In this document: one piece after another, positions 31,509-51,806 of the stretch | Layout of the letters: each line of letters begins with the position of its first letter | Numbering within the stretch: the stretch's first letter is position 1 | Assembly: GCF_025602895.1 (NCBI RefSeq) | Contig: NW_026516412.1 | Span: 1 to 52,803, forward strand | Direction of reading: 5' to 3' | From: Polychytrium aggregatum | Lineage: Eukaryota > Chytridiomycota > Chytridiomycetes > Polychytriales | Length of the DNA stretch: 52,803 nt | The notes under the pieces: model-generated | What the model was told of the DNA's origin: nothing | The model's database searches: none | What the model saw: the letters and a program-made list of their open reading frames with translations, nothing else | Position numbers and translations under genes: made by a program

Positions 31509-31975
31509 ACAGCCTCCTGCACCATGACTTGACTTGGGGGAACGGGCGACATTTGGTCTTGGTTGGCTTCATCACGGCCACTCGGACATTTTGGATAGGG
31601 TTCGGCCATTGCGGGGGCCTGCGGCGTCAGCACGCCATTGCACACGACGTCCACGGCTTGCGGACACATGTCGGAAGCATCCGACACACACGACTTGACA
31701 GGGGTGAGGGCACAGGCGGTCCTGTCTCTCAAGGGTTCTTGATTTTCTCTTTTGTTTTGGTTTTCAATTTTGGTTTTCTCTTCACGTTCGTGGAGAGGCA
31801 GGCGGCTTGCGCCACCATGCACCTCTCGCACGACGCACAACACTTGGTTTGTTTCTCCTTCGGGGGAGGGGGCGAGGTGAACTTCCTCTGGAGACGCGTG
31901 GACTGCATTGAGCAATCCACGGCGTTGGCCTCCTACTAGGGCTCCAGAGCCACCTAGTAGGGTCGGCCGTTTCCC
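31509..31975 (-). CDS. pol: Pol of C1, N-terminal fragment, cut by B
   Basis: The -1 frame from GGGAAAC (31975-31969) runs [20 protein letters not shown] onward and ends at the B junction, before the protease. The continuation is beyond the left part of B and outside the window. Confidence 0.85.
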
Positions 31976-32775
31976 GACTTCATGGGGCACTCCTTGGCCT
32001 GGTGTCCCGGTCGGTGACAGAAGAAGCAGGAACCATGGCGGAGGTCCTCCTGCTTCTGTCTGTCCTTGGGGGAGACAGTGGCAGCTTGCTGGAACCGGGA
32101 GCGGGGAGGGCCACGAGCCTCCATGGCGTTGACGTCAACGTCCATGGGCTCAGGCATGGGTCTTGCGGGCGGGGCCGGGCGAGGCGGACGGGCTGGGACG
32201 TGATGAGACCGATGGCCGCCTGCCAGCTGCGGGTAGAACTGGCGGCCATGGTACTGGACGTTGTCGAGGTTCTCGGCAACGTCCATCATCACGTCCAGGG
32301 ACTTGCGGGCATCAGGGTTGCTGGCGATGTACTCTCTGATCTTGGGCTTGAGGCCCTTCTGGAAGAGGTACATCGCGTCAGCAGAGCCCAGCTCCTCAAT
32401 CTGGGAGGAGAGGTCTTCAAACTCCTCGATGTAGCGGGTTACGGAACCACGCTGCACGAGAGAGTATAGCTTGTCACGGGCAATAAGTTCAGCATTGGGG
32501 CTGCCGAAGCGGCGACGGAGGCGGTCCTTGAAGTCGTCAAACACACCTTCGCTCTGCTCGTCGAACCCTTGGCGGCGGTACCAACGGTACGCCTGGTCCT
32601 TCAAGCAGAGCTTGGCTGCGACGATGTGGTGGGTGGGGGCGACTTGGGCAGCATCGAGGTAGTCCTCGAGTTGCTGCAGCCAGTCCTCCACCGAGGAGGA
32701 GCGGCTCTTCCCAGTAAACACTGGGGCACGGAAGGTCTTGAGGAAGGCTTCCGGAAGTGGGCGGGGGTTGCTCAT
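31954..32775 (-). CDS. gag: Gag of C1
   Basis: 273 residues from the ATG at 32775 ([15 protein letters not shown]). Frame upstream of it runs into the inserted C2 LTR. It has the Gag core ([29 protein letters not shown]) and a CCHC knuckle, [14 protein letters not shown]. It is almost identical to the C2 Gag. The stop is inside the frameshift hairpin (31932-31961). Confidence 0.92.
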   Translation of the reverse strand: MSNPRPLPEAFLKTFRAPVFTGKSRSSSVEDWLQQLEDYLDAAQVAPTHHIVAAKLCLKDQAYRWYRRQGFDEQSEGVFDDFKDRLRRRFGSPNAELIARDKLYSLVQRGSVTRYIEEFEDLSSQIEELGSADAMYLFQKGLKPKIREYIASNPDARKSLDVMMDVAENLDNVQYHGRQFYPQLAGGHRSHHVPARPPRPAPPARPMPEPMDVDVNAMEARGPPRSRFQQAATVSPKDRQKQEDLRHGSCFFCHRPGHQAKECPMKSGNGRPY

Positions 32776-32828
32776 GGCAGGGGCAGGCTCCAGGGACAGA
32801 GAGGAGAGTCGGTCGGCAAGAGAGGCGG

Positions 32829-33137
32829 TGTAACGTCCACTACTGGGACGTTGGGGCAAGACGGGGAGGGAGGGGGTACAAGACAAGACAGGACGGGGCA
32901 GAACAGGGCGGTGCTAGGCTACTCTAGCGGACGGGTGAGCTCGGGGAGCACTTACGTTTATTCACGATAAAACCGAACTCCAGACAAACGGGGGGAACGG
33001 GGGCAACCCGCAGGTATACCCTGCGGTGGCCTGCCTGCGGTGCGTGAAAACGCAAAGCGCAGCACAGGTCACGACCCACTGCGCCGCGCAGTACGCGCAG
33101 TACGCGCAGCACAGCGTCGGAGATACCATCTCCTACA
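32829..33137 (-). repeat. 3' LTR of C2
   Basis: TGTA..TACA ends. Short palindromes lie just inside each end: AACGTCC..GGACGTT (32832-32852) and GGAGAT..ATCTCC (33119-33133). A purine tract of C2 (complement of 33138-33148) adjoins it. Confidence 0.93.
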
Positions 33138-33146
33138 CTCCCACAC

Positions 33147-36100
33147 TTAAGAAGGCTTCCTGCGAGGAGCCCTGCGTGTGCTCTTTATTTGGGGCTCCTC
33201 GAGGTGTTTACCGTATTTACTCAGCTCCTCGGGTGCATGGGACAAGTCCTCCAGTGTTTGCCATGTGTTGCCCGAGTGTGGGTAACCAACCCACTTGACA
33301 TAAAACCGAAGTGACCCATCAGCCACTTTCTTGTGCCTCACGATCCTTTCGACTTCATATTCTTGAGTATAGTATTGTCCGAGGTCGTCTTCCAGTGGTG
33401 CGTCGTCCGGGACACCTTCGTCGGCGTCGGGGAACTGTGCTGGACTGCGGGTCGTGTGGCGACGCAGCTTGGACACATGGAAGACAGGATGGAGCTTGCT
33501 TCCAGGTGGCAAGTCCAACAGGTAGTTGAGGGGACTGGGTCGGGCCGCTATCTTGAACGGTCCTCGGTACTTGGGCAACAACTTCTTTGACTGGGCTTCG
33601 GGGACCTTGATGTTGTCGGCGTCCAGGTAGACAAGGTCTCCAACTTCAAAGGAGACATCCTGGTGTCGGCGGTCGTAGTACTTCGCCATCACTTGTTGCG
33701 CATCCGTGAGCGCGTCGGCGATCATCTTGTGTCGGACTTGATGATCTTTGACAAAGGCACTTGGTTTGGGAGGCAATCCAGCCGTGGACTCGGTCAGTGT
33801 CAAGGAGGTGGGAACATCAGGCTGGAATCCGTAGAGCGCCTCAAAGGGGCTCAAGCCAGTTGTGCTCGACTTGGCGGTGTTGTATGCAAACTCTGCATGA
33901 CTCAGCTGTATGTCCCAGTCGTCTTGGCTGGTCGAGGCGTATGTCCTCAGGTATTGCTCGAGGGTGCGGATCGTCCGCTCGGACTGTCCATCCGTTTGTT
34001 GGTGGTGCGAGGTTGACATGTTCAGCTTGGTGCCGAGATGGTCGAACAGACTTGTCCAAAACAAGGAGGTGAATCGGGGGTCTCGATCACTGACGATGGA
34101 CTTTGGGAGGCCGTGGTGCTTGAACACATGCTTGAAGAACAGCAGTGCAAGGTCAGGCGCGGAGCATGTCGTCTGGCACGGCACAAAGTGTGCCATCTTG
34201 CTGAACCTGTCGACAAAGACAGCGATTGCATCGTGGTCCAACTTGGTCGTCGGTAGATGCGTGATGAGATCCATGGACATGCTGGTCCAGGGGCGGTCGG
34301 GAACAGGCAGGGGTTGCAGCAATCCTTGCTCTCGGGTCGTGCGTGACTTGACCATCTTGCAGGTATGGCAGGACTCGATGTACTTCTCGACGGTGCGCTT
34401 CATTCCAGGCCAGTATGCGACTTTGGCCAGTCGGTCGTATGTCTTCTCGACTCCAAAGTGTCCAGCGAGGGGCGAGTCGTGGACCTCTTGGAGCAACTTG
34501 GTCTTCAACGACGGAATGTCCGGCACACAGACACGGCTGTCCTTCTTCAGGAGGAGCAGGCCATCACGCACTGTGTACTCGGATGATTCGTCGTCCTTGG
34601 GGAGCTTAGACACCTTTCGGAACAGTTCTCCGAACTGTTTGTCGTTGGCGATGTTGTCTCGGACAACATCCAGCATCGTGTTGTCGACACTGACAGTCGA
34701 CTCGTACAGTGACGCCAATTGGTAGTCGGGGCGTCGGGACAGTGCGTCAGGCACCACATTGAGTTTGCCTTTCTGGTATACAACCTCGTAGTTGTACTCG
34801 GCGAGGAACTCCATCCATCGCGCTTGGCGTCGGCTCAGGTTCTTCTTGGTGTCGAGGTAACGCAGTGACTGGTGGTCCGTCACAATCTTGAAGGGCTTGG
34901 CGGTACCGTGGAGGTACACTCGGAACTTCTGCAGCGCGTAGATGATCGCAAGCTGCTCCTTCTCGTGCACGGGATAGTTGATCTCGTGTTGGGACAGTTT
35001 GCGCGACTCGAAGGCAACGGGCCTTCCCTCCTGCATCAAAACAGCTCCCACCGCAAAGTCGGAGGCGTCGGTGTGCACGGAGACATCCGTGTTCGGGTCG
35101 AACACAGCGAGGACAGGAGCGTTCGTCAAGGCGTGCTTGAGGGTCTCGAACGCTTGGCGTTGTGGGTGGTCCCACACGAAGGGGCACTCTTTGCGGAGTA
35201 GGTCTGTGAGTGGACCGGCAGTGCGCGCCAGATCGGGGATGAATCGGCGGTAGTAGTTGACGAGACCGAGAAACGACTGCACGTCAGAGACGCATGCGAG
35301 CGGCGGCCACTCGACCACAGACTTGACCTTGGCGGGGTCGACTTCGATTCCTCTTCCTGAGACAACGTGTCCCAGGAACGGGACTTGATTCTTGAAGAAC
35401 TCACACTTGGACAGTTTGGCATACAACTTGTGCTCGCGTAGCTTGGCCAGCACGCGGGCGACATGACCTTCATGGGTCGCTTCATCCTTGCTGTACACAA
35501 GGATATCATCCAGGTACACGATGACAGAGTTGTCGAGCTCTTGGCGGAACACATCGTTCATCAGCTGCATGAACGTGGCAGGTGCGTTCGTCAATCCGAA
35601 CGGCAGCACTAGGAACTCGTACAGTCCGTAGCGAGTCCTGAAGGCGGTCTTGTGGACATCATCCTCGTGGATGCGGATCTGATGGTAGCCTGAGCGGAGG
35701 TCTATCTTGCTAAAGACCTTTGCTCCACTCAGACGATCCATCAACTCGTCGATCCTGGGCAACGGGTAGGTGTTCTTGATGGTCTGTTTGTTTAGTGCGC
35801 GATAGTCGACGCACATCCTGAGATCACCTTCTTTCTTCTTGACAAAGAGCACTGGTGCACCATACGGTGACTGGCTCGGGCGGATGAACCCATGGGCGAG
35901 GAGGTCATCCAACTGGCGCTTGAGTTCGTCCATCTCCGTCAGCGACAGTTGGTACGTCGGTCTTGACGGAGGCGACGAGCCTGGTTCGATGTCGATGCGA
36001 TGATCGACGGTGCGTTGGGGTGGCAGGCATTGTGGCAACTGGTCGGGGAATACGTCCTTGTACTCGTCGAGCAGCTTGGTCACCACAGGCGGGGGACCGG

Positions 36101-37064
36101 GACCGGCTTGGTCGGTGTCGTCGACCTCACGCACGACACAGAGGAACGACGTGTCCTTCTTGATCAGCCTCTTGAATTGCATGGCTGAGAGGAGAGGTGG
36201 CATGTTGGGTGAGGCCATGCCCTGCAGGACAATGTCAGGGCCAACACGGACAGTGCGGCCTTTCCAGTCGACGACTGGAGTCGGCTCGGCACGAGCAAGC
36301 CAGCTCATGCCGAGGATGGCATCGAACTTGGTGTCGATCACTTGGAACAACAGGACAGGATGGTACTTGGGATGGAGGGCCACTCGCAGGACCACTTGGT
36401 GTGTGCACTGCTGCACACGATCGTCTGCAAGCGCCACACTCATCGGCGACTTCTTCTTGGTTGCATGTATGTTGAGCTCCTGGAGCAAGCGTCTGCTGAC
36501 AAAGTTGCAGCTTGCTCCAGAGTCCACCATCATTCGGACGGTGTGACCTTGGACGGTGGCAGGGAGGTACAGCAGGGACTCTTCATGGTCCTCCTGCACA
36601 GCCTCCTGCACCATGACTTGACTTGGGGGAACGGGCGACACTTGGTCTTGGTTGGCTTCATCACGGCCACTCGGACATTTTGGATAGGGTTCGGCCATTG
36701 CGGGGGCCTGCGGCGTCAGCACGCCATTGCACACGACGTCCACGGCTTGCGGACACATGTCGGAAGCATCCGACACACACGACTTGACAGGGGTGAGGGC
36801 ACAGGCGGTCCTGTCCCTCAAGGGTTCTTGATTTTCTTTTTTGTTTTGGTTTTCAATTTTGGTTTTCTCTTCACGTTCGTGGAGAGGCAGGCGGCTTGCG
36901 CCACCATGCACCTCTCGCACGACGCACAACACTTGGTTTGTTTCTCCTTCGGGGGAGGGGGCGAGGTGAACTTCCTCTGGAGACGCGTGGACTGCATTGA
37001 GCAATCCACGGCGTTGGTCTCCTACTAGGGCTCCAGAGCCACCTAGTAGGGTCGGCCGTTTCCC
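33147..37064 (-). CDS. pol: Pol of C2
   Basis: Read from the GGGAAAC heptamer in the -1 frame; the product is about 1300 residues. Domains in order: Lys/Glu-rich linker; protease with DSG ([10 protein letters not shown], about residue 185); RT ([32 protein letters not shown]); RNase H ([16 protein letters not shown]); integrase finger ([22 protein letters not shown]); DDE core ([35 protein letters not shown]); GPY/F-type module ([13 protein letters not shown]); and chromodomain ([25 protein letters not shown]). No break was seen. Confidence 0.95.
37021..37064 (-). promoter_or_regulatory. Candidate -1 frameshift signal of C2
   Basis: On the minus strand GGGAAAC (37064-37058), read G GGA AAC in the gag frame, is followed by a 7-nt spacer. 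A perfect 9-bp stem CCTACTAGG (37050-37042) with CCTAGTAGG (37029-37021) comes next, capped by an inner GCTC/GAGC. The gag stop TAG lies in the 5' arm. C1 has the same signal at 31932-31975. Confidence 0.85.
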
Positions 37065-37864
37065 GACTTCATGGGGCACTCCTTGGCCTGGTGTCCCGGT
37101 CGGTGACAGAAGAAGCAGGAACCATGGCGGAGGTCCTCCTGCTTCTGTCTGTCCTTGGGGGAGACAGTGGCAGCTTGCTGGAACCGGGAGCGGGGAGGGC
37201 CACGAGCCTCCATGGCGTTGACGTCAACGTCCATGGGCTCAGGCATGGGTCTTGCGGGCGGGGCCGGGCGAGGCGGACGGGCTGGGACGTGATGAGACCG
37301 ATGGCCGCCTGCCAGCTGCGGGTAGAACTGGCGGCCATGGTACTGGACGTTGTCGAGGTTCTCGGCAACGTCCATCATCACGTCCAGGGACTTGCGGGCA
37401 TCAGGGTTGCTGGCGATGTACTCTCTGATCTTGGGCTTGAGGCCCTTCTGGAAGAGGTACATCGCATCAGCAGAGCCCAGCTCCTCAATCTGGGAGGAGA
37501 GGTCTTCAAACTCCTCGATGTAGCGGGTCACAGAACCACGCTGCACGAGAGAGTATAGCTTGTCACGGGCAATGAGTTCAGCATTGGGGCTGCCGAAGCG
37601 GCGACGGAGGCGGTCCTTGAAGTCGTCAAACACACCTTCGCTCTGCTCGTCGAACCCTTGGCGGCGGTACCAACGGTACGCCTGGTCCTTTAAGCAGAGC
37701 TTGGCGGCGACGATGTGGTGGGTGGGGGCGACTTGGGCAGCATCGAGGTAGTCCTCGAGTTGCTGCAGCCAGTCCTCCACCGAGGAGGAGCGGCTCTTCC
37801 CAGTAAACACTGGGGCACGGAAGGTCTTGAGGAAGGCTTCCGGAAGTGGGCGGGGGTTGCTCAT
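37043..37864 (-). CDS. gag: Gag of C2
   Basis: 273 residues from the ATG at 37864, the first ATG after the primer site and a leader of about 110 nt. It has the Gag core and the CCHC knuckle [14 protein letters not shown]. The last codons overlap pol at the frameshift site. Confidence 0.94.
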
Positions 37865-37974
37865 GGCAGGGGCAGGCTCCAGGGACAGAGAGGAGAGTCG
37901 GTCGGCAAGAGAGGCGGGATCCAGCTTGAGGATCTAGAAAGAGGACAAACAGGACGAAAACAAGACGAGGATTT

Positions 37975-37986
37975 CCGATGCTACCA
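37975..37986 (-). other. tRNA-type primer-binding site of C2
   Basis: On the minus strand TGGTAGCATCGG directly follows the 5' LTR. It is the same 12-mer as in E, so both families probably use the same tRNA primer. Confidence 0.72.
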
Positions 37987-38295
37987 TGTAACGTCCACTA
38001 CTGGGACGTTGGGGCAAGACGGGGAGGGAGGGGGTACAAGACAAGACAGGACGGGGCAGAACAGGGCGGTGCTAGGCTACTCTAGCGGACGGGTGAGCTC
38101 GGGGAGCACTTACGTTTATTCACGATAAAACCGAACTCCAGACAAACGGGGGGAACGGGGGCAACCCGCAGGTATACCCTGCGGTGGCCTGCCTGCGGTG
38201 CGTGAAAACGCAAAGCGCAGCACAGGTCACGACCCACTGCGCCGCGCAGTACGCGCAGTACGCGCAGCACAGCGTCGGAGATACCATCTCCTACA
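37987..38295 (-). repeat. 5' LTR of C2
   Basis: 309 bp, the same as the 3' copy on reading. The duplication GGCGG lies at 38296-38300. Confidence 0.93.
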
Positions 38296-38300
38296 GGCGG

Positions 38301-38370
38301 GATCCAGCTTGAGGATCTAGAAAGAGGACAAACAGGACGAAAACAAGACGAGGATTTCCGATGCTACCAT
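38301..38370 (-). other. Leader fragment of C1 with its primer site
   Basis: This 70-bp piece, identical in kind to the C2 leader (37917-37986), lies between two C LTRs. It carries the TGGTAGCATCGG site (38370-38359, minus strand). It is the part of the C1 leader cut off by C2. Confidence 0.9.
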
Positions 38371-38679
38371 GTAACGTCCACTACTGGGACGTTGGGGCAA
38401 GACGGGGAGGGAGGGGGTACAAGACAAGACAGGACAGGGCAGAACAGGGCGGTGCTAGGCTACTCTAGCGGACGGGTGAGCTCGGGGAAGCACTTACGTT
38501 TATTCACGATAAAACCGAACTGCAGACAAACGGGGGGAACGGGGGCAACCCGCAGGTATACCCTGCGGTGGCCTGCCTGCGGTGCGTGAAAACGCAAAGC
38601 GCAGCACAGGTCACGACCCACTGCGCCGCGCAGTACGCGCAGTACGCGCAGCACAGCGTCGGAGATACCATCTCCTACA
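38371..38679 (-). repeat. 5' LTR of C1
   Basis: 309 bp. It differs from the C2 LTRs at several positions (for example GGGGAAGC near 38487 and CTGCAG near 38521), so it is older. It is inserted in a D-family LTR; the right-hand duplication should be TGAGC (38680-38684). Confidence 0.92.
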
Positions 38680-40569: not shown

Positions 40570-43500
40570 CTACTGTTTATCACGACATACCCAGATGATC
40601 TGGTTACCAAACCAATCACCAGATTTGATTGTTGTGCCATCTGGCGAAATAGACAAGGAAAGTACAGGATTATGTTGTCCCTCGATGGTGTGCTTCATCT
40701 GGCCCGTGGTAGAGTCCCACACCTTGATGGTCCTGTCGCTTGATCCCGATGCAATCCATTTGCCATCTGGCGAGATAGCCACGGAGTACACCCAGTTGGT
40801 GTGCCCTGTCATTGTCATTTCACTCGGATCCCAGGTGGGTGCTGGACTGCAGGTGACCAGGAACGGGATCTTGTCCTCGAGTTGGGTGGCATATGTCTTG
40901 TAGATCGCCGTCTCCTTCGGTGTGAATGCAAACCCCGAATTGTACACCTGTGGTGCACTCTTGATGATCGGATCGGCAAACTCGCGGATGAATCGATACG
41001 TGTCCTTGACCAGTTCCTTCGTGGTGTCGTCGACAGTGGTGCTGGGTGCCTTGGTGATCACTCCTCGGAGCACAGCCAGTTGCCCGATGATCGGCTCGAC
41101 CACATGTGTGAGCGACCCACACTCGAGCCAGAAGAACACATGCGTCTTGACGAACCGAGTGAGCACCGCTGCCACATCGACCATCTCGGTCAACTGCCAC
41201 ACCGGACTCGACTCGGCCACTCCTTCCACACACCACACAGAGTGTGTGATCCAGTGGGCGACGCTGTATCGCTGCGACGGTGTGATCTTGGCTGCGACCC
41301 TGTCCTCGAGGTCTGGGATCTTGTCGTGAAACTCGTAGATCTCGCAGATGTTGACCACTGGCTCGTGCGAGAGGATCGCTCCGAGACATCCCTTGGCAAA
41401 CACCGTGTGGAACGAGGTCGATACATGCCACGGATGGCCAGCCGATGTGTCGCCGAGGAGATAGTCCGCCACCGACTTGTGGTTGAACTTGACCTCGGTA
41501 TTGGTGGACTGGCTGCCTCGGGGACCCAAGCTATTGGCGCCTGGATCGAGGACCAGACTGAGGCTCTTGAGACACTCGCGAACGACGCCGATCTCGAGTC
41601 CAAACACATCGGCGATGATCTGCGGGGTCAGGATCGACTGGGCCGTGGCGATGGCCGACCCCACCGTGACCAACTCGGCCGGGTGGCTCGATTGCGAGTG
41701 GATCTTGGCGAATGTCTTGTGATACAGCTGCCCGACATCGGCGGCGCTGTCGTTGATGTCCTTGATCGTGGCGAGTGTCACTGGGCCGTCCGTGGATGCT
41801 GCGTCGACGGTGTTGAGGATCAGGTTGATCCACACGAATGTCTTGGACTGGTCCAGCAGGATGGCGACTGCCTCGGTGCGGTCCGAGTCAGTGAGAGTGT
41901 CATACACTCGCAGTCGGTGATGGATGTACACCTCGAGGTCACGGACGTTCTCCTCGCTCGAGGGTTCGATCGTCTTGGTCGGGACTCCATCGAATGCTGC
42001 CTTGATGTCGTCCTCGGGTCGGGATGTCAGCAGCAGCTTGAGCCACGGACGGGTCTTGTTCAGTTCGACGAAGCGCCAGGCAAGCAGGCTGAGCAACTGG
42101 TCGCGCGGAGAGCACTCGTCGAGTGCATCCACCAGGATCATCACCGATCCCTTGGGTCTGTAGTCGCCGATGGCTTCGAGTGGATCGGCAATCACGGCCT
42201 TGAACAGGTCCGGGATGCTCATCTTGTCGAGACTGTCCTTGGTGTGGCCAGCCTCGAGCAGCTTGCGGCCAATCGGCGAGTGCCACTTGCACAGTCCATA
42301 TGCGATGGTGTTCAACACCACTCGTGGATCGCTCTTGCGGATGTCATTGTATTTGAGGAACAGCGCCGACACCAGTTGATTGCTGGCTGTGAGGATGTTG
42401 GCGATCTGGGCAGTAGCGACAGACTTGCCCACTCCAGCAACGGCATTGACCCACAGGACAGTGTCGGTGGTGTCCTGGTTGACCCAGTCGGTTGTTTGGT
42501 CGAACAGCCACTGGCGGGTGCCCTCGACATACAGATCCTCGAGTGCCCTTCTGTCGGAAGTGGAGTCGATCGGATCGAGGAGGGATCGCAGGAGCGAGTT
42601 TTGTTCGGCGGTGAGGACGACACTTCCACCTTGTGTGTACATATCGCCTTGCTTGTTTGCAATGGAAGATTTCATTATGAGTTCGCGAATATTGGGCACC
42701 AACCTATCGAACATTGATCGTGTGAGTTGGTGACAACAAGATCCCATGCGACAGCGAAATCCATACCTCCTGAGAGCGTTCCCATCGGCAGCATCGAGTG
42801 CCTGCAGCTTCAACAGCTCGGCAAAGGTTTCACGGATCGTCATTGGCTTGCCATCGAACAACGGACTCTTCTTATGGATCGGAGGGTAGTCGGGGAACTC
42901 TTTGACGGATGGGAAATACTTCATGTGGAGTGTTTCTCCATCAAACTCTCTGGTGGACCACATGAAGATGGGCTGGATGATGACAGATTGTCCATTCTTC
43001 TCACCGTCCTTCATTCTCTTCAGAGCATGCTGGATCTATAGACACAATATAGTGAGGTTCAAAGTCGATGGAATAGTGTGATGCAAGCCTGCGTACCTCG
43101 AGAAACTGGTTATCGTGCTTATGATGAGCATTGAGTGGCTCGAGTCCAGCCTCTGAGAGGATCAGGACAATCACATTCGATCGATAGAGGCCGTTGATAA
43201 AGCCTTGCGCCCAATCCATTCCATCACTGAGACAAACAGTGTCCAGATAGGGATGGATTGCTGTTTGACCACGCGGAGGGACGGCGAGGGTCCCATGCAA
43301 GGTGGTCGCATTGATTGTGTCACTTCGGACCCGATAGCTGTGGAATCACTTATTAGAATTATGAAATGGAGCAGAAACTGACGAATCACCACGTACCTGA
43401 TGAAGACATCGTGCCTCACATAATGTTTTTTGCACTTCCAATTCAGGGTCGGTTTTACCGGAGTGTACTCGCTTGGATCCAGGAGACGCTCGGACGGAAC

Positions 43501-44742
43501 AAAAGTGGGTTCTGTCAGCCTTGGTGACTCCTTTGGTATATCGAGCCTGGGTGAAACATGATTTTGTTGTGCAATCTTGAGCTTCATGGTGGCACCATCA
43601 TTCAGTCCGATCTTGGCAATCTGGTTATCATCGAGAGCAAGGAGCTGTGGAGTTCAAGAGTCAGCAACGCACTTGGTTAACATTATGAATGACAAAGCAC
43701 ACATACCACATCGACGGTGTCGTAATCGCGCTCCTCAAAACGGCCCTTGTACTTAGTTAGTACATTGTCCTCAAGAAATTTATGGAACGCATTAGAGCTA
43801 TTGCTTGGTGGACGCTCGCTCGTGGTGCTTGTTTTGATTGACTCTGTTTGAATGGTATCGTTGACACTGGCTTGATATTCGGGAGGTGGAGTTGGGAGAG
43901 TGGTATGCAGTGGCGTTTCATTTCCTGCCCTTTTGTCGTCTGATTTGAGTTCGGGAGTTGCTTCTCTACCTTCAGTCACACTCGCTTCCTGGACAATCGA
44001 AGTGGATGCTGGTGCCAGATTGGAACTGGAGGTGGAGGCAAAAGCTTGACGATGCCTTCCCTGCGCATTCTTGAGGGTTTTGACATGGCCAATCTTCAAG
44101 CTGATGTCCTTCATCTCTCCGTCATCTAGTGTAAGGAGCTGGCGCACTAATTAGCAATGCGAGTCAAAGTACCGAGGATCAAAGCCGAGGTCAAGCTTAC
44201 CAACTCGATGGTGTCCAATCCATTTGCGATGAAGAGATGCTTCATTTTATCGAGTCCACATTTCCTTATGAATTCATCAAAAGCTTTAGATCCTTCAGTC
44301 TCTTCGGTCTCTTCGTCTTCATTAGAGGTGTTTTCGATCTTGGATTGAATGTCGCTGGGTTCCTTGGTGTTAACTTTGGAGTTGTTTTCGATGTCGAATG
44401 AGTGAATATCAGGTCACATGACAAGCTGATACGAATCGAGCCAATATCACTCAAGCCAAGGTGAATCGAGTCGCACTGAACTCGTGGTTCGATCCGATAT
44501 CACCCCGGCGGCGGGAGTTCGATTCCGGACCACGTCGCCGAGAGAAAATGGCCAAGAACTCATCCTGATTCATCACAATCCATGGCCGCCGATTCGAATG
44601 AAACTATTTCACGGCTATTATTGATCAAAATCGACTCAGCAACCAACGATCTCCACTGACCTGGTACTTGCTTCTTCCGGTGCAGCCACCAGAGGGACAA
44701 TAGTCCGACGAGGGCGGATACGACGATGATCCACAGGAGCAT
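40570..44742 (-). CDS. Membrane-anchored SAM-SAM-TIR-NACHT-WD40 receptor-like protein
   Basis: Seven proposed exons: 44742-44661, 44373-44201, 44138-43707, 43644-43397, 43337-43097, 43035-42767, 42703-40570. All introns are GT..AG. Five are 59-63 bp; the first, 287 bp, is the least certain; the 63-bp one is in frame and could be retained. The sum is 3579 nt, exactly 1193 codons. Domains: N-terminal hydrophobic anchor (MLLWIIVVSALVGLLSLWWL); SAM 1 (about 52-113) and SAM 2 (about 201-260), with an intron at the same place in both; TIR (about 305-450; HDVFISYR, then GMDWAQGFINGL, candidate catalytic Glu392 in DNQFLE); NACHT (GVGKS 572-576, MILVDALDE 670-678); and two WD40 blades (1115-1192). TIRs with this Glu can be NAD hydrolases. 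A signalling or self-recognition role is inferred. The C terminus is abnormally short. Confidence 0.82.
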
Positions 44743-44796: not shown

Positions 44797-44804
44797 TTTT
44801 ATAT
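44797..44804 (-). promoter_or_regulatory. TATA box of the SAM-SAM-TIR-NACHT gene
   Basis: ATATAAAA on the minus strand, about 55 bp upstream of the proposed ATG at 44742. It supports that start, because transcription about 30 bp downstream would give a short 5' leader. Confidence 0.6.
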
Positions 44805-46305: not shown

Positions 46306-47490
46306 TCATTCCATCTGGCGCAAGGCGAGCTCTGCATCAGAATCGCCAAGTCCAGCTGCTCTGGCGTACAGTTCCTTGGCCACCACTGGGTTTCTGGTGA
46401 CACCCACAACATCGGAATATCGGCGAGCCAGGTGTCGCATCGCTGGGGAAAGCTCCTTTGGGATATCGCTGATGATGGCGTTGACCTGGTTGTCGTCAAA
46501 GCCATTGAGGTACTTGAAGCGGATCACCTCAAACGAGAACTCTGACCCAAGTGCGGCTGCTTGAGTGTGCAATTCGAACGACATGATAATGGAGCAACTG
46601 TACCACGGCCAGACTGGTAGCATGTTGCGAGTCCCGAGATGCCCTCAGCAAATGACTGATCAGCTGCCTTGGAGAAGAACTCGAATGCCTTGTCGTTGTC
46701 CTTCTCTACACCATCACCGTCAAAGTACGCACAGGTGAGGTTGTACTGTGCGCTCGAATGTCCTTGATCGACGGCTTTCTTGAACCATGATACTGCAATG
46801 TGGCTGTCTCTGACGATGCCGATACTGTCATAGTAGAGGGTGCCAATGCCATTCCGAGCACAGGCCAGACCACCATCGGCTGCGAGGACAAGCCGTTTGA
46901 GGCACCTGGTCGAGTCCTTGTCGACATAAATGCCATTGAGGTAGCCGCATTCCAACTCGAAGCAGCCAGTGAGGTTCTCCTTCGGCGCCTTTCGGAAGTT
47001 GAGAATGCTTCTTGGTGATTCTGGGGACTCCGATGCCATCTCGGTAGCATCGACCAAGACGAACCTGTGACTCGGCGTGTTTCTCGCGGCCAGGATGGAA
47101 TACACCTTGGCAGCCAAAACAGGATCTTGCTGGTCGAGGATGCTGTTGGTGAGATGGGGCCCGATCGGGATGATTGATCCATTGGGCTGCTTCTCCAGAC
47201 ACCCAGTCAGTAGCCTGGCGGCTTTCACATGGTCGATTGGGAGACCAATACCATTCTGGAAGCGAACTCCCAGTGTGTACTGCGAGGGTAGATGACCATG
47301 CTCGCAAGCCTTCATGACCACTTGGATGCGATGCCGTCGTTCTTCTCGACGCCATCTCCCTTTGCGTAGTGTACCAGTTTTGCCATGGAAGAGACGCATC
47401 CAGCATTCCCAGCATTGACCAAGGCCACGATGAAGCTCCTCTGTGGTTGTGGGCCGGGTGGTCTGGAATGCATGGATGTGGTATTCTCTT
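46306..47490 (-). pseudogene. Sel1-repeat protein, frameshifted
   Basis: Sel1-like repeats (about 36-residue helical hairpins used as protein-binding scaffolds) are clear in three different frames: NAGCVSSMAKLVHYAKGDGVEKND (47480-47340), then GHLPSQYTLGVRFQNGIGLP..SAQYNLTCAYFDGDGVEKDN..YQSGRGT (47320-46600), then LHTQAAALGSEFSF to the end (46580-46306). Frame changes fall near 47335 and near 46595. No splice sites explain them, so this is either a decayed gene or has residual base-calling indels. It is related in style to the intact gene at 50307. Confidence 0.6.
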
Positions 47491-47589
47491 GGGCATTGCC
47501 AAGTGCTCTTCTTGGCAATCTGGGAGAGTGATACGAGTGACGACTTGCATTTGGTATGATGGTGTGCGATTGAATGCGATGGAATGCGA

Positions 47590-48060
47590 TGTGGGCGGAG
47601 CAGTGGGCGTATATGGTGCTGGCCTCGTCCAAAGAGCGATGCTGGGCCAGGATGAACTCGGTGTTATACGAGTCTCTGCCCATGCGAGCACAGTCGGTGC
47701 ATTTCATCTGGCCGTCGGCTCCTCCGGACTTGCCGTTTGCCGCTGCTGCCGCTGTCGTGCCAGTGGCCCCCTGGTCTTGCACCAGCCAAGCGTCCGGACG
47801 AAGGCTCTGGTGTGTCAGGTCGTCCAGTTGGCAGGGTCTTGAATGGCACCCGAGTTGAACATGCCGACGATGGCCTCCAGGTTCGATAGCATCATGATGG
47901 CGCGGGACTTGTATGCGTCTCGGAACTGCGGGTTGATCCAGCTGCACACGCCCTTGTAAGTTGTGGTGGCATAGCGATAGATGCTCTCTTCCAAGACCTC
48001 GGCGTGGTCGGGCGTCTTTGCCTGGAGGGTCTGCAGGGCGATGCTACGCTGCGAGTCCAT
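47590..48060 (-). pseudogene. TFIIS-like protein (domain II and zinc ribbon), with one frame break
   Basis: The ATG at 48060 opens MDSQRSIALQTLQAKT. The stretch AYKSRAIMMLSNLEAIVGMF..NSGAI resembles the YKNR..SNL..NP..L..G.I signature of TFIIS domain II. After a one-base frame change near 47830 comes MKCTDCARM..TEFILAQHRSLDEASTIYAHCSAH. This matches the TFIIS zinc ribbon with its acidic DE hairpin (family form RSADE), though the last ligand would be His rather than Cys. TFIIS stimulates RNA cleavage by stalled RNA polymerase II. It is divergent from the gene at 48133, 72 bp away. Confidence 0.5.
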
Positions 48061-49060: not shown

Positions 49061-50306
49061 GGATCGGCTAACATGTATATCCAATGACAACGATCACAGC
49101 CAAGTATCCAAGTCGGTTCACTGGAACGGGCATACTTGTGATGGAGGGTGTGTGGCTACCATCGAACGACAACAAAACGCAGTCAGTGGATCAATACACA
49201 TGTACATCATGACGCCTAGCGATGGACTGTCACTTGAGATCTGGGCGATATCGCCTCGTTCCTCGACATCCGATCGTGCTTGACACTGACGCCCTTGCCA
49301 TCGATTCCTCGCATTTCATCAACCCGCATGGGTGGATATGATCTCCCAGTGCTGCATCAACACACGCGGACGCTCTCTGATCCAAGTGGTCATGCGACCG
49401 ATCTCATTGATATGGCGTATGATAAAGCCGTATAGTGCATTGCTTTGTCGTCTCCTCATGGATCACCATCCTGTCTACCACTGCCTGGTTCATCCTTACT
49501 GATTCAACCACATGCTCCAACTTACTGCTGTCACTGGCCTCTCTGCATCGGCGCTGACCACGAATACCAGAAATAACGAAACCCCACGCGATCATCTGAT
49601 GCGATCCCTTATGAGGACCAGAGTCGCAGCATTCCAAGAGACCGAGATTACATTCACGAGCAACTTCGGTCCAAGACTGCATTTCATGCCGAGTCACTCA
49701 TCTCACTCTCATCGACCATCGACCCAGTTCTATCCCAACCTGGGACAAGGACGACCCTCCGTCGCATCTTGTCCAGTACCCCTCCTCCTCCCAGGAGTCC
49801 ATGCATTGCGCGCCCCTCCATACTTGAACCACAACACCCTGGTGGAAGCCTCGCGCAAGTGATCTTGGCCATGACCTCTGCAATCTGGATTACATCTTGT
49901 CCGACCATCAAGCTGGTGTTGGTTCTGGTGTGCTACGAGATGCAAGGGAATGAGAAAATGAGGGAACTAGGATGGACATGGTTGTGAGCACTGTGTGTGT
50001 GTTGTGGGGTTCGATTCCATGTTCGATTCATGTTCGATGAATGTGGCGGTGCCTGTGGCAGTGCAAAAACATCGATTCCAGCCATCAAACCATCGGATCG
50101 AGCCAGGTTGTGTGTGTGTTCAATGGCCAGTGTATGGCCTGCCATTGTTTGGCTTGCTTTGCCACAAATTCCCTCGCTGTCCCCTGTCCATCTCCATCAT
50201 CCACTTTCCTCCATCCCACATTCAACATGGCCAGATCGAGTCTGCTCCAACCACGGAGTCATCTCCCACTCACCAAGCTCAAGCTGAAACCAGAGCAACC
50301 TCGTCG
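49061..50306. other. Region without a supported gene
   Basis: Several frames of 60-116 codons exist on both strands, but none shows a domain, a membrane segment or a convincing start. The last 300 bp should hold the promoter of the Sel1 gene; no clear TATA box was seen. Confidence 0.45.
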
Positions 50307-51806
50307 ATGCCCGATATCACCCAATTCTCACTCGAGCACAGCCCAGATATCTTCACCATCATATGCTGCAACGACAGCTTCCAGCTTGCCCTCGATCACA
50401 GCACCATCAAGGCTCTCCTCCGAGTGTGTAGGCATGTCCAGCCTCTCCTGAGCTCCAAGGTGGCTCGCTTCCACAGCTGGTGCCAGAATGCAGGCTTGTG
50501 CAATCCAGATGGACAGATGCGAATCGGTCTCACACCGAGCGACTTGATTGCCATATCGCTGCATTGCGACGATCCGGTCACAGCCGACCGATCCTGGCTC
50601 GAAGATCAAGCCGATATGGGCAATGGTGCTGCCTCGTATCTCTTGGCTCGAATGCTGCAATCTGAGATCGACTCACAAACAGACGATGACGATGAGCCTG
50701 AAGAGTACACCAACCGTCAGCAGATATTCCACCATTTGGAGAGTGCCGCCCAAGCCCAACATCCGATGGCACAGTTTCGCCTGGCCGAATGCTATCGCAA
50801 CGGTGTCATGGTCGACAAAGATCACACCAAGGCCGTCGAGCTGTATCGCAATCTTGCAGATCGTGGAATCCCTCGGGCGCAAATTGCCCTCGGCCAATAC
50901 TTTGAGAATGGCGAGGGTGTCGAGCAAGATTATAACAACGCGATCGAATGGTATTCCAAGGCCGCCGACCAGGGCAGCGAGGATGGTCGACTCCATATCG
51001 TGTTCCTCCGAGGATGGTTCTCGTTCGTTGGCCACAATGTCGAACAGAGCGATGTCGCTGCTCTCAACCATTGGCAGGAAGTGAGCACCAAGTCGACTGA
51101 CCCAGTCATCAAACCCATCGCCACCCACATGGTCGGGTGGATGCACTACCTCGGCCGGGGCACCGTGCGCGACGAGCCAATGGGTACCAAGATCATTCGA
51201 GAGAACAAGTCGGATGAGTTCCCACTCGGGGAAGGCGAATGTCTGGCAGCGAATTGGGCCCCAATCAAGTCCGACCTACCCGCACCCCGCAAGTTCTTCG
51301 AGCTGTGCCAGCTTGGATCTGAAAGGGACTGGCTGTGCAGACATCTCATGGCTGTGTGTGTGTTCCAAGAATTCGGAGCCACAAATGACCGGGAGAAGGC
51401 AGCTGGTATCTTTGAACAGCTCGCCAACGACGGCCACAGCGACAGCCAGTTCTGGATCGGAGAGTGCTATCAATACGGCAGAGGAGTATCGCAGGACCAC
51501 AAGACGGCATTCGAGCGGTTCAGCAAGTCGGCCAACCAAGGCAACTCATATGGACAGTGGAGCGTTGGTTTTTGCTACTACTGGGGATGGGGAGTCACCG
51601 AGGACCGCACCAAGGCAGCCGAGTGGTTCCGCAAGTCGGCCGAGCAGGGCAATAGAGACGGACAAAACGCTCTCGGCGACTGCTACGATAATGGCTGGGG
51701 TGTCCCTCGAGACATCGACACCGCCGTCTTCTGGTACCGCAAGTCCGCCGAGAATGGAAATAATCCTGCCATCATCAACCTCGAGGGGCTCGGCAAATGG
51801 CCCTGA
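50307..51806 (+). CDS. Sel1-repeat protein
   Basis: 499 residues from the ATG at 50307 (MPDITQFSLEHSPDIF), the last in-frame ATG before the conserved part. The same frame is open further upstream but looks non-coding. Residues 1-100 have no recognised domain and contain an F-box-like helical region (FTIICCNDSFQLALDHSTIK). Residues about 104-495 are Sel1-like repeats, e.g. AQFRLAECYRNGVMVDKDHT, AQIALGQYFENGEGVEQDYN, SQFWIGECYQYGRGVSQDHK and GQNALGDCYDNGWGVPRDID. A divergent stretch (235-375) lies between the two repeat blocks. Such proteins are adaptors; partner and pathway are unknown. No introns are evident. Confidence 0.88.
   Translation: MPDITQFSLEHSPDIFTIICCNDSFQLALDHSTIKALLRVCRHVQPLLSSKVARFHSWCQNAGLCNPDGQMRIGLTPSDLIAISLHCDDPVTADRSWLEDQADMGNGAASYLLARMLQSEIDSQTDDDDEPEEYTNRQQIFHHLESAAQAQHPMAQFRLAECYRNGVMVDKDHTKAVELYRNLADRGIPRAQIALGQYFENGEGVEQDYNNAIEWYSKAADQGSEDGRLHIVFLRGWFSFVGHNVEQSDVAALNHWQEVSTKSTDPVIKPIATHMVGWMHYLGRGTVRDEPMGTKIIRENKSDEFPLGEGECLAANWAPIKSDLPAPRKFFELCQLGSERDWLCRHLMAVCVFQEFGATNDREKAAGIFEQLANDGHSDSQFWIGECYQYGRGVSQDHKTAFERFSKSANQGNSYGQWSVGFCYYWGWGVTEDRTKAAEWFRKSAEQGNRDGQNALGDCYDNGWGVPRDIDTAVFWYRKSAENGNNPAIINLEGLGKWP

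Follow-up and report, generated by a model that had tools for sequence, protein, structure and literature searches.

A SAM-SAM-TIR-NACHT-WD40 gene with a contracted sensor end in the chytrid Polychytrium aggregatum, and its family of putative NLR-type receptors

Does a single chytrid gene join a SARM1-like SAM-SAM-TIR effector half to the NACHT and WD40 parts of a NOD-like receptor (NLR), and does the copy at hand still look like a working receptor? The question is raised by a minus-strand locus in a 52,803-nucleotide stretch of Polychytrium aggregatum DNA (contig NW_026516412.1; hereafter the window). A preliminary description had read this locus as one seven-exon gene of 1193 codons encoding a self-contained receptor, with a domain order known from no described fungal protein. 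In our assessment, the locus probably belongs to a large family of chytrid receptors of the NLR type, i.e. STAND proteins (signal transduction ATPases with numerous domains), with a SAM-TIR effector half. The family layout, as read from the sequences compared here, runs from one or two SAMs, preceded in this sub-clade by an anchor, through a TIR whose nearest match is the SARM1 TIR and an NPHP3_N-type NACHT with the region behind it, to a WD40 propeller of varying blade number. The receptor at the window locus is probably sensor-poor, as a copy in decay or as a signalling form cut short, because the effector half and NACHT are kept and the propeller is contracted and ends early.

The gene occupies positions 44742 to 40570. 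Its seven exons form one continuous reading frame of 3579 nt (1192 amino acids plus a stop codon), in agreement with the 1193-codon model, and its six introns (287, 62, 62, 59, 61 and 63 nt) are all of the GT..AG type. The sixth intron (42766-42704) was missing from the splice list of the preliminary description, yet it was counted in the codon total. The splice sites were identical, at identical codons, in the paralog C24 and in the more distant paralogs C301 and C57. Intron 6 must be spliced, because it contains an in-frame stop in C301 and C57. Furthermore, the annotated P. aggregatum protein P0001, which resembles exons of locus L045 (contig C101), joins an anchor, SAM halves and the first TIR half at the joints predicted here, and afterwards diverges from the family. 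With identical joints in three paralogs, and with the whole order present in single annotated Chytriomyces proteins as well, sequence comparison confirmed one gene with the SAM-SAM-TIR-NACHT-WD40 order. A TATAAA box upstream of the start codon was retained in six fetched relatives of the sub-clade (L031-L034, L039 and L040) and not in L045; a sigma-70 promoter scan found nothing, such a scan being uninformative for a fungus.

The coding parts show purifying selection in comparison with C301, from which the synonymous divergence was 0.51 over residues 1-1105. The ratio of nonsynonymous to synonymous change (Ka/Ks) was 0.22 for the anchor, 0.23 for SAM1, 0.13 for SAM2, 0.10 for the TIR, 0.23 for the NACHT core, 0.46 for the post-NACHT region and 0.24 to 0.76 for the linkers; chance open frames would not give such values.

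Profile searches called SAM, NACHT and WD40 directly. For the TIR, Pfam TIR_2 on the window protein alone stayed below the cut-off (E 0.0047; 17.9 bits against 28), and the call became secure with a profile of the family, which matched the SARM1 TIR. Of 14 family members, 13 had a TIR_2 match at E 1 or better, the best E being 3.9e-7. The fold of a relative's TIR matched that of SARM1 best, and this match is an active NAD-cleaving enzyme (NADase). In an alignment of 14 members, one of them a TIR-NB-ARC row, Glu392 was invariant and aligned with the Glu of SARM1 DWVHKE, and the box-1 motif FISYR and the B-strand Asp were invariant or nearly so. These results support the proposed SARM1-like TIR, with SARM1 as its nearest match in sequence and, as judged from the relative, in fold, and likewise the candidate catalytic Glu392. 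The window TIR alone found no TIR in the PDB (its three matches, all VCAM-1, were due to chance), and NCBIfam and PADLOC listed nothing for it. A search of the own genome with Pfam TIR (PF01582) gave no match, and one with SAM_1 gave seven, none at the window locus; both miss the locus because introns cut the two domains and the TIR is divergent. In a narrow test with two short peptides, none of 54 pattern stretches in genome contigs was confirmed as a bacterial or archaeal relative, and a recent bacterial origin is therefore without support here.

Two SAMs indeed precede the TIR: Pfam on the whole model, with the best 25 of 27 families listed, gave two SAM_2 stretches (23.5 bits; cut-off 20.5). 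However, the pair is no evidence for a SARM1 half, as the preliminary description had taken it to be. In a comparison of the SAM family profile with SAMs in the PDB, a Caskin-1/EphA6 entry was the best match (E 1.5e-12), and the best SARM1 SAM reached E 0.011. The 20 fetched 10-kb loci contained one SAM in 11 cases, two in six and none detectable in three, and three of the six two-SAM loci (C24, C161 and C374) are very close to the window copy. The double-SAM exon 3 had full-length matches at seven places in the genome, including the window, and partial ones at C46 and C334. In a tree of SAMs from the fetched sequences, SAM1 of the window grouped with SAM1 of C301 (98/87) and the single SAM of C20 (94/89), and SAM2 with those of C301 and C46 (100/99); the two were not sisters, and the deeper branches were weak. 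A separate Chytriomyces SAM group (81/75) is only suggestive of a second SAM gained independently there. Since most fetched loci carry one SAM and the SAMs are not specifically SARM1-like, the resemblance to the SARM1 pair looks convergent. We rejected the SAM-SAM arrangement as a sign of SARM1 orthology on the grounds of the variable SAM number, the Caskin/Eph-like profile and the non-sister SAM1 and SAM2.

The predicted N-terminal membrane anchor was supported as the most hydrophobic 19-residue window of the protein (Kyte-Doolittle 2.38), and P0001 has a comparable one. Basic residues past it suggest a cytosolic body on the endoplasmic reticulum or the mitochondrial outer membrane. The proposed NACHT, with its Walker A and Walker B motifs, was borne out by Pfam. 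As regards the features of NLR/STAND proteins, the window protein has the Walker A/B NTPase and the N-terminal SAM-TIR effector, and a repeat sensor of 8-11 blades is found in three spliced paralogs.

We searched the own genome with the TIR region of the window and with NPHP3_N. The former gave 192 matches, 150 of them listed, and the latter 106, all above the cut-off and 16 of them weaker than E 1e-15. Clustering of the listed matches gave at least 84 TIR loci and 101 NACHT loci. At least 79 of the 101 NACHT loci had a TIR match just upstream on the same strand; among the matches listed, 22 lacked one (e.g. C179:600505 and C90:280221), and five TIR loci lacked a NACHT match. These counts are inflated by alleles or haplotype contigs counted separately, since the scores of many matches are equal or almost equal (e.g. 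the window, C374 and C161), and lowered by the 150 of 192 TIR matches that they cover. Over 10 kb that include the retrotransposon part, C374 and the window share 99.7% identity. C24 is 96.9% identical over the shared part, and the two sequences part at 40673, inside repeats. The window and C24 hardly differ at synonymous sites before the NACHT, and from there onward the synonymous change is 0.12-0.15, as expected if paralogs exchange segments, and we take this as a sign of such exchange.

Relatives were also found in other chytrids. The NACHT region identified 21 proteins among the scored candidates, i.e. the 8000 sharing most words with it. Four of them, Chytriomyces P0021-P0024 (HDU78_009105, HDU77_009592, BC830DRAFT_1141173 and BC830DRAFT_1233804, named just "hypothetical protein" in the source), showed 46-50% identity over this region. 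In P0023, one annotated protein brings together two SAM_2 stretches (35.2 bits), TIR_2 (28.1 bits; cut-off 28), NACHT and WD40. P0021 contains TIR_2 (29.1 bits), NACHT and WD40, with SAM_1 below the cut-off (20.4 of 23 bits), and in P0024 both SAM (E 0.09) and TIR_2 (23.2 bits) were below it. By eye and alignment, P0021 (from Chytriomyces hyalinus) also has a second SAM-TIR past its WD40 array (residues about 1410-1695), which would be either a neighbour that has become fused or two gene models merged into one. Among NCBIfam families, the Chytriomyces proteins matched only anti-phage TIRs, well under the cut-off, apart from weak matches over the WD40 part, and PADLOC gave one weak match over the P0023 TIR (PDC-S66, E 6.8e-5) and matches over the WD40 part. 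A single-protein search with window residues 200-500 found no homolog among 2134 candidates; the family TIR profile had 17 matches among 3779, including Rhizoclosmatium and Cladochytrium proteins and P0015, which has a SAM before a sub-threshold TIR_2. A further protein, P0036, is a TIR-NACHT-WD40 protein in which no SAM was seen. Because this order recurs in annotated Chytriomyces proteins, one of them with two SAMs, we regard the SAM-TIR-NACHT-WD40 proteins as a chytrid family on sequence grounds. The supposed uniqueness of the order did not survive these comparisons, given the Chytriomyces proteins and the TIR upstream of most NACHT loci in P. aggregatum itself.

The established biology of NLRs, SARM1 and HET-E suggests how such a receptor might work. 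The WD40 propeller would sense a ligand and ATP-bound NACHTs would assemble, with the SAM domains reinforcing the assembly by analogy with SARM1. The clustered TIRs would then cleave NAD+, leading to cell death or local defence, and the anchor would fix the cytosolic body to the membrane where the TIRs act. By the same analogy, NADase activity and cell death are what we infer for the family TIR.

Several observations weigh against reading the locus as an NLR-type receptor with this activity. NPHP3_N matched 9 of 14 control genomes, above the cut-off in five, and a NACHT match alone does not make an NLR, because this is a broad family. The Trp four residues before the catalytic Glu of SARM1 (helix C) is replaced by Asn in 13 of the 14 aligned members and by Ser in the TIR-NB-ARC row. 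According to the available text of a TIR survey (PMC7075850, 2020), the same Glu is frequent in some TLR TIRs and need not track activity, so that fold and Glu alone do not reveal a NADase. The membrane orientation would follow from the basic residues after the anchor only. Finally, the window copy itself may be non-functional.

This last point arises from the sensor end. WD40 was called by Pfam as described earlier, yet what remains in the window copy is a single canonical blade with an atypical end blade behind it, and its frame closes at a point where C24, C301 and C57 read on; the copies C374 and C161 end in the same way. By pattern, the three spliced paralogs have 8 (C24), 10 (C57) and 11 (C301) canonical blades, each followed by an end blade and a tail. 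Tandem Repeats Finder detected 126-nt arrays in 10 of the 20 fetched loci, with up to 10.8 copies and with matches of 82-92% in six loci and 68-76% in four, and none in the 3' part of the window copy. With its propeller nearly gone, this copy is not obviously complete, and the notion of a self-contained receptor was not upheld for it. The evidence is about evenly balanced on whether it is a decaying pseudogene, in which the repeat array collapsed, a stop arose and the sensor was lost, so that only its siblings work. The blade number, the early stop (the protein is 381 codons shorter than that of C24), an extra stop inside the NACHT of the third copy C161 and a contig crowded with mobile elements all fit such decay. 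However, the 821-codon last frame is open in both the window and C374, the matched upstream exons contain no stop, the NACHT has a Ka/Ks of 0.09 against C24 (on 21 changes only), and the annotated Chytriomyces P0024 likewise has only two to three blades.

The NLR-type reading of the family also has to be weighed against a TIR that is a non-enzymatic scaffold, with SAM and TIR assembly recruiting other TIR proteins that carry the activity. The Asn at the SARM1 Trp position would fit a scaffold, and possible partners exist in the same genome, namely a TIR-NB-ARC gene and P0003, an annotated protein related to it. We nevertheless consider a scaffold rather unlikely, given the conserved Glu, FISYR box and B-strand Asp, a TIR that is the most constrained part against C301, and an active NADase as the best fold match. 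That the window protein is an artefact of wrongly joined exons of neighbouring genes, as the divergence of P0001 after the first TIR half and the failure of residues 200-500 to find a long annotated host protein with the SAM-TIR part might suggest, is highly improbable in view of identical exon joints at three other loci and the complete order within single Chytriomyces proteins.

The TIR-NB-ARC gene lies at L043 (G000:C201:281907-291906), from about 8340 onward on the plus strand, head to head with a SAM-TIR-NACHT gene (about 7340, minus strand); its NB-ARC was called at E 3.5e-9 and its TIR by similarity. The arrangement is reminiscent of paired plant NLRs. In the window, positions 1-38700 are crowded with Ty3-type gag-pol frames, one element lying downstream of the receptor gene (Table 1), and two Sel1-repeat frames lie upstream of it (46527-47663, minus strand; 49971-51803, plus strand).

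Table 1. Positions of the receptor gene, its parts and the adjoining retroelement in the window (LTR, long terminal repeat)
Feature	Position	Strand	Basis
TATAAA box, 56-61 nt before ATG	44798..44803	-	read in sequence; relatives compared
Exon 1: start codon and N-terminal membrane anchor MLLWIIVVSALVGLLSLWWLHRKKQ	44661..44742	-	splice model; Ka/Ks 0.22 vs C301
Exon 2: linker and first SAM1 half	44201..44373	-	splice model, Pfam, paralog comparison
SAM1, residues about 58-108, split by intron 2	44070..44284	-	Pfam SAM_2, 20.6 bits alone (cut-off 20.5)
Exon 3: second SAM1 half, linker, first SAM2 half	43707..44138	-	splice model, Pfam, paralog comparison
SAM2, residues about 207-255, split by intron 3	43567..43775	-	Pfam SAM_1, E 1.2e-4, 22.8 bits (cut-off 23)
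Exon 4: second SAM2 half, linker, TIR first strand (HDVFI)	43397..43644	-	splice model, paralog comparison
TIR region, residues about 305-478, exons 4-6	42778..43419	-	
Exon 5: central TIR, ending in candidate catalytic Glu392 (codon 43099-43097)	43097..43337	-	splice model, alignment, paralog comparison
Exon 6: TIR C-terminal part	42767..43035	-	splice model, paralog comparison
Exon 7: NACHT, helical region, WD40 propeller remnant, stop codon	40570..42703	-	splice model, Pfam, blade comparison
NACHT, NPHP3_N type, GVGKS and ILVDALDE	42019..42522	-	PF24883, E 3.4e-27; genome search hits same place
Single canonical WD40 blade	40714..40818	-	Pfam; blade comparison
Atypical end blade; gene ends earlier here than in paralogs	40573..40713	-	compared with C24, C301, C57
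Ty3-type LTR element downstream of receptor	33150..38679	-	LTR-like unit, gag frame, pol frame
LTR-like tandem unit, doubled 383-384 nt	37912-38679	-	repeat search
gag frame	37046-37933	-	likeness to Pfam-confirmed gag at 31957-32913
pol frame	33150-37223	-	Pfam

In the available parts of earlier papers, fungal proteins from 49 species had no PF01582 TIR (PMC2939053, 2010), and no NLRs were reported in chytrids (PMC4986451, 2014). NLR numbers from one upward in Chytridiomycota species are given in a later one (PMC12258605, 2025), and TIR-NLRs in chytrids had previously been noted (PMC9815663, 2022). SAM-TIR-NACHT-WD40 proteins were described in none of the titles and abstract openings listed, a coverage that leaves out most subscription journals; within this literature, neither the order nor its scale here seems to have been described before. 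In one chytrid, an aquatic fungus, about a hundred NACHT loci, alleles included, most of them preceded by one SARM1-like TIR subtype, place a big TIR-NLR repertoire with length-changing WD40 arrays among early-branching fungi. They also offer a system outside animals in which to study the activation of a SARM1-like TIR by SAM and NACHT assembly, and make the origin of the SARM1 SAM-TIR core testable. It is a speculative and, in our view, improbable idea that a single opisthokont SAM-TIR module gave rise both to the chytrid effector half and to the SAM-TIR core of SARM1 in animals; if true, SARM1 would be an immune-receptor effector that swapped its NACHT-WD40 sensor for ARM repeats.

Compared with SARM1, an ARM-SAM-SAM-TIR NADase that destroys injured nerve axons, the window protein shares SAMs directly before the TIR, the best TIR match in sequence and fold, and the aligned catalytic Glu. 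SARM1 carries an N-terminal targeting segment, to which the anchor can be likened. However, the window protein has no ARM repeats and only 57 residues (anchor and linker) before SAM1, and its TIR is not C-terminal but followed by NACHT and WD40. Moreover, the chytrid TIRs lack the helix C Trp, the SAMs are not specifically SARM1-like, and the family is large, with a single SAM in 11 of 20 fetched loci, whereas SARM1 is typically one gene.

The HNWD proteins of Podospora (HET-E, HET-D and HET-R) have the same succession of N-terminal effector, NACHT and WD40 array. They belong to Ascomycota and have a HET domain where the chytrid proteins have SAM-TIR; no HET match was among the Pfam families listed for the model and its pieces, a TIR being found instead. 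To our knowledge, they lack an anchor of the window type. The available text of two papers describes for HNWD a TIR-related death domain, a NACHT and highly similar WD40 repeats of changing copy number (PMC4986451, PMC12881547). TEP1, NWD1, NWD2 and NPHP3 likewise have a TIR-like domain beside a NACHT, several of them with WD40, and TEP1 is a NADase according to the accessible part of a preprint (PMC13174449). Their DUF4062 is, however, a different TIR-like family, a preceding SAM is not mentioned in that part, and DUF4062 was not among the Pfam matches listed for the model or its pieces.

The closest counterparts are Chytriomyces P0021-P0024, with the same order and TIR subtype and, in P0023, also two SAMs, although by eye P0021-P0023 start without a window-type anchor. 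The plant TIR-NB-LRR proteins, whose sensor is a leucine-rich repeat (LRR) region, and the SAM-less P0036 have TIRs of different subtypes. They nevertheless share with the chytrid family the principle of a TIR effector on a STAND ATPase with a repeat sensor.

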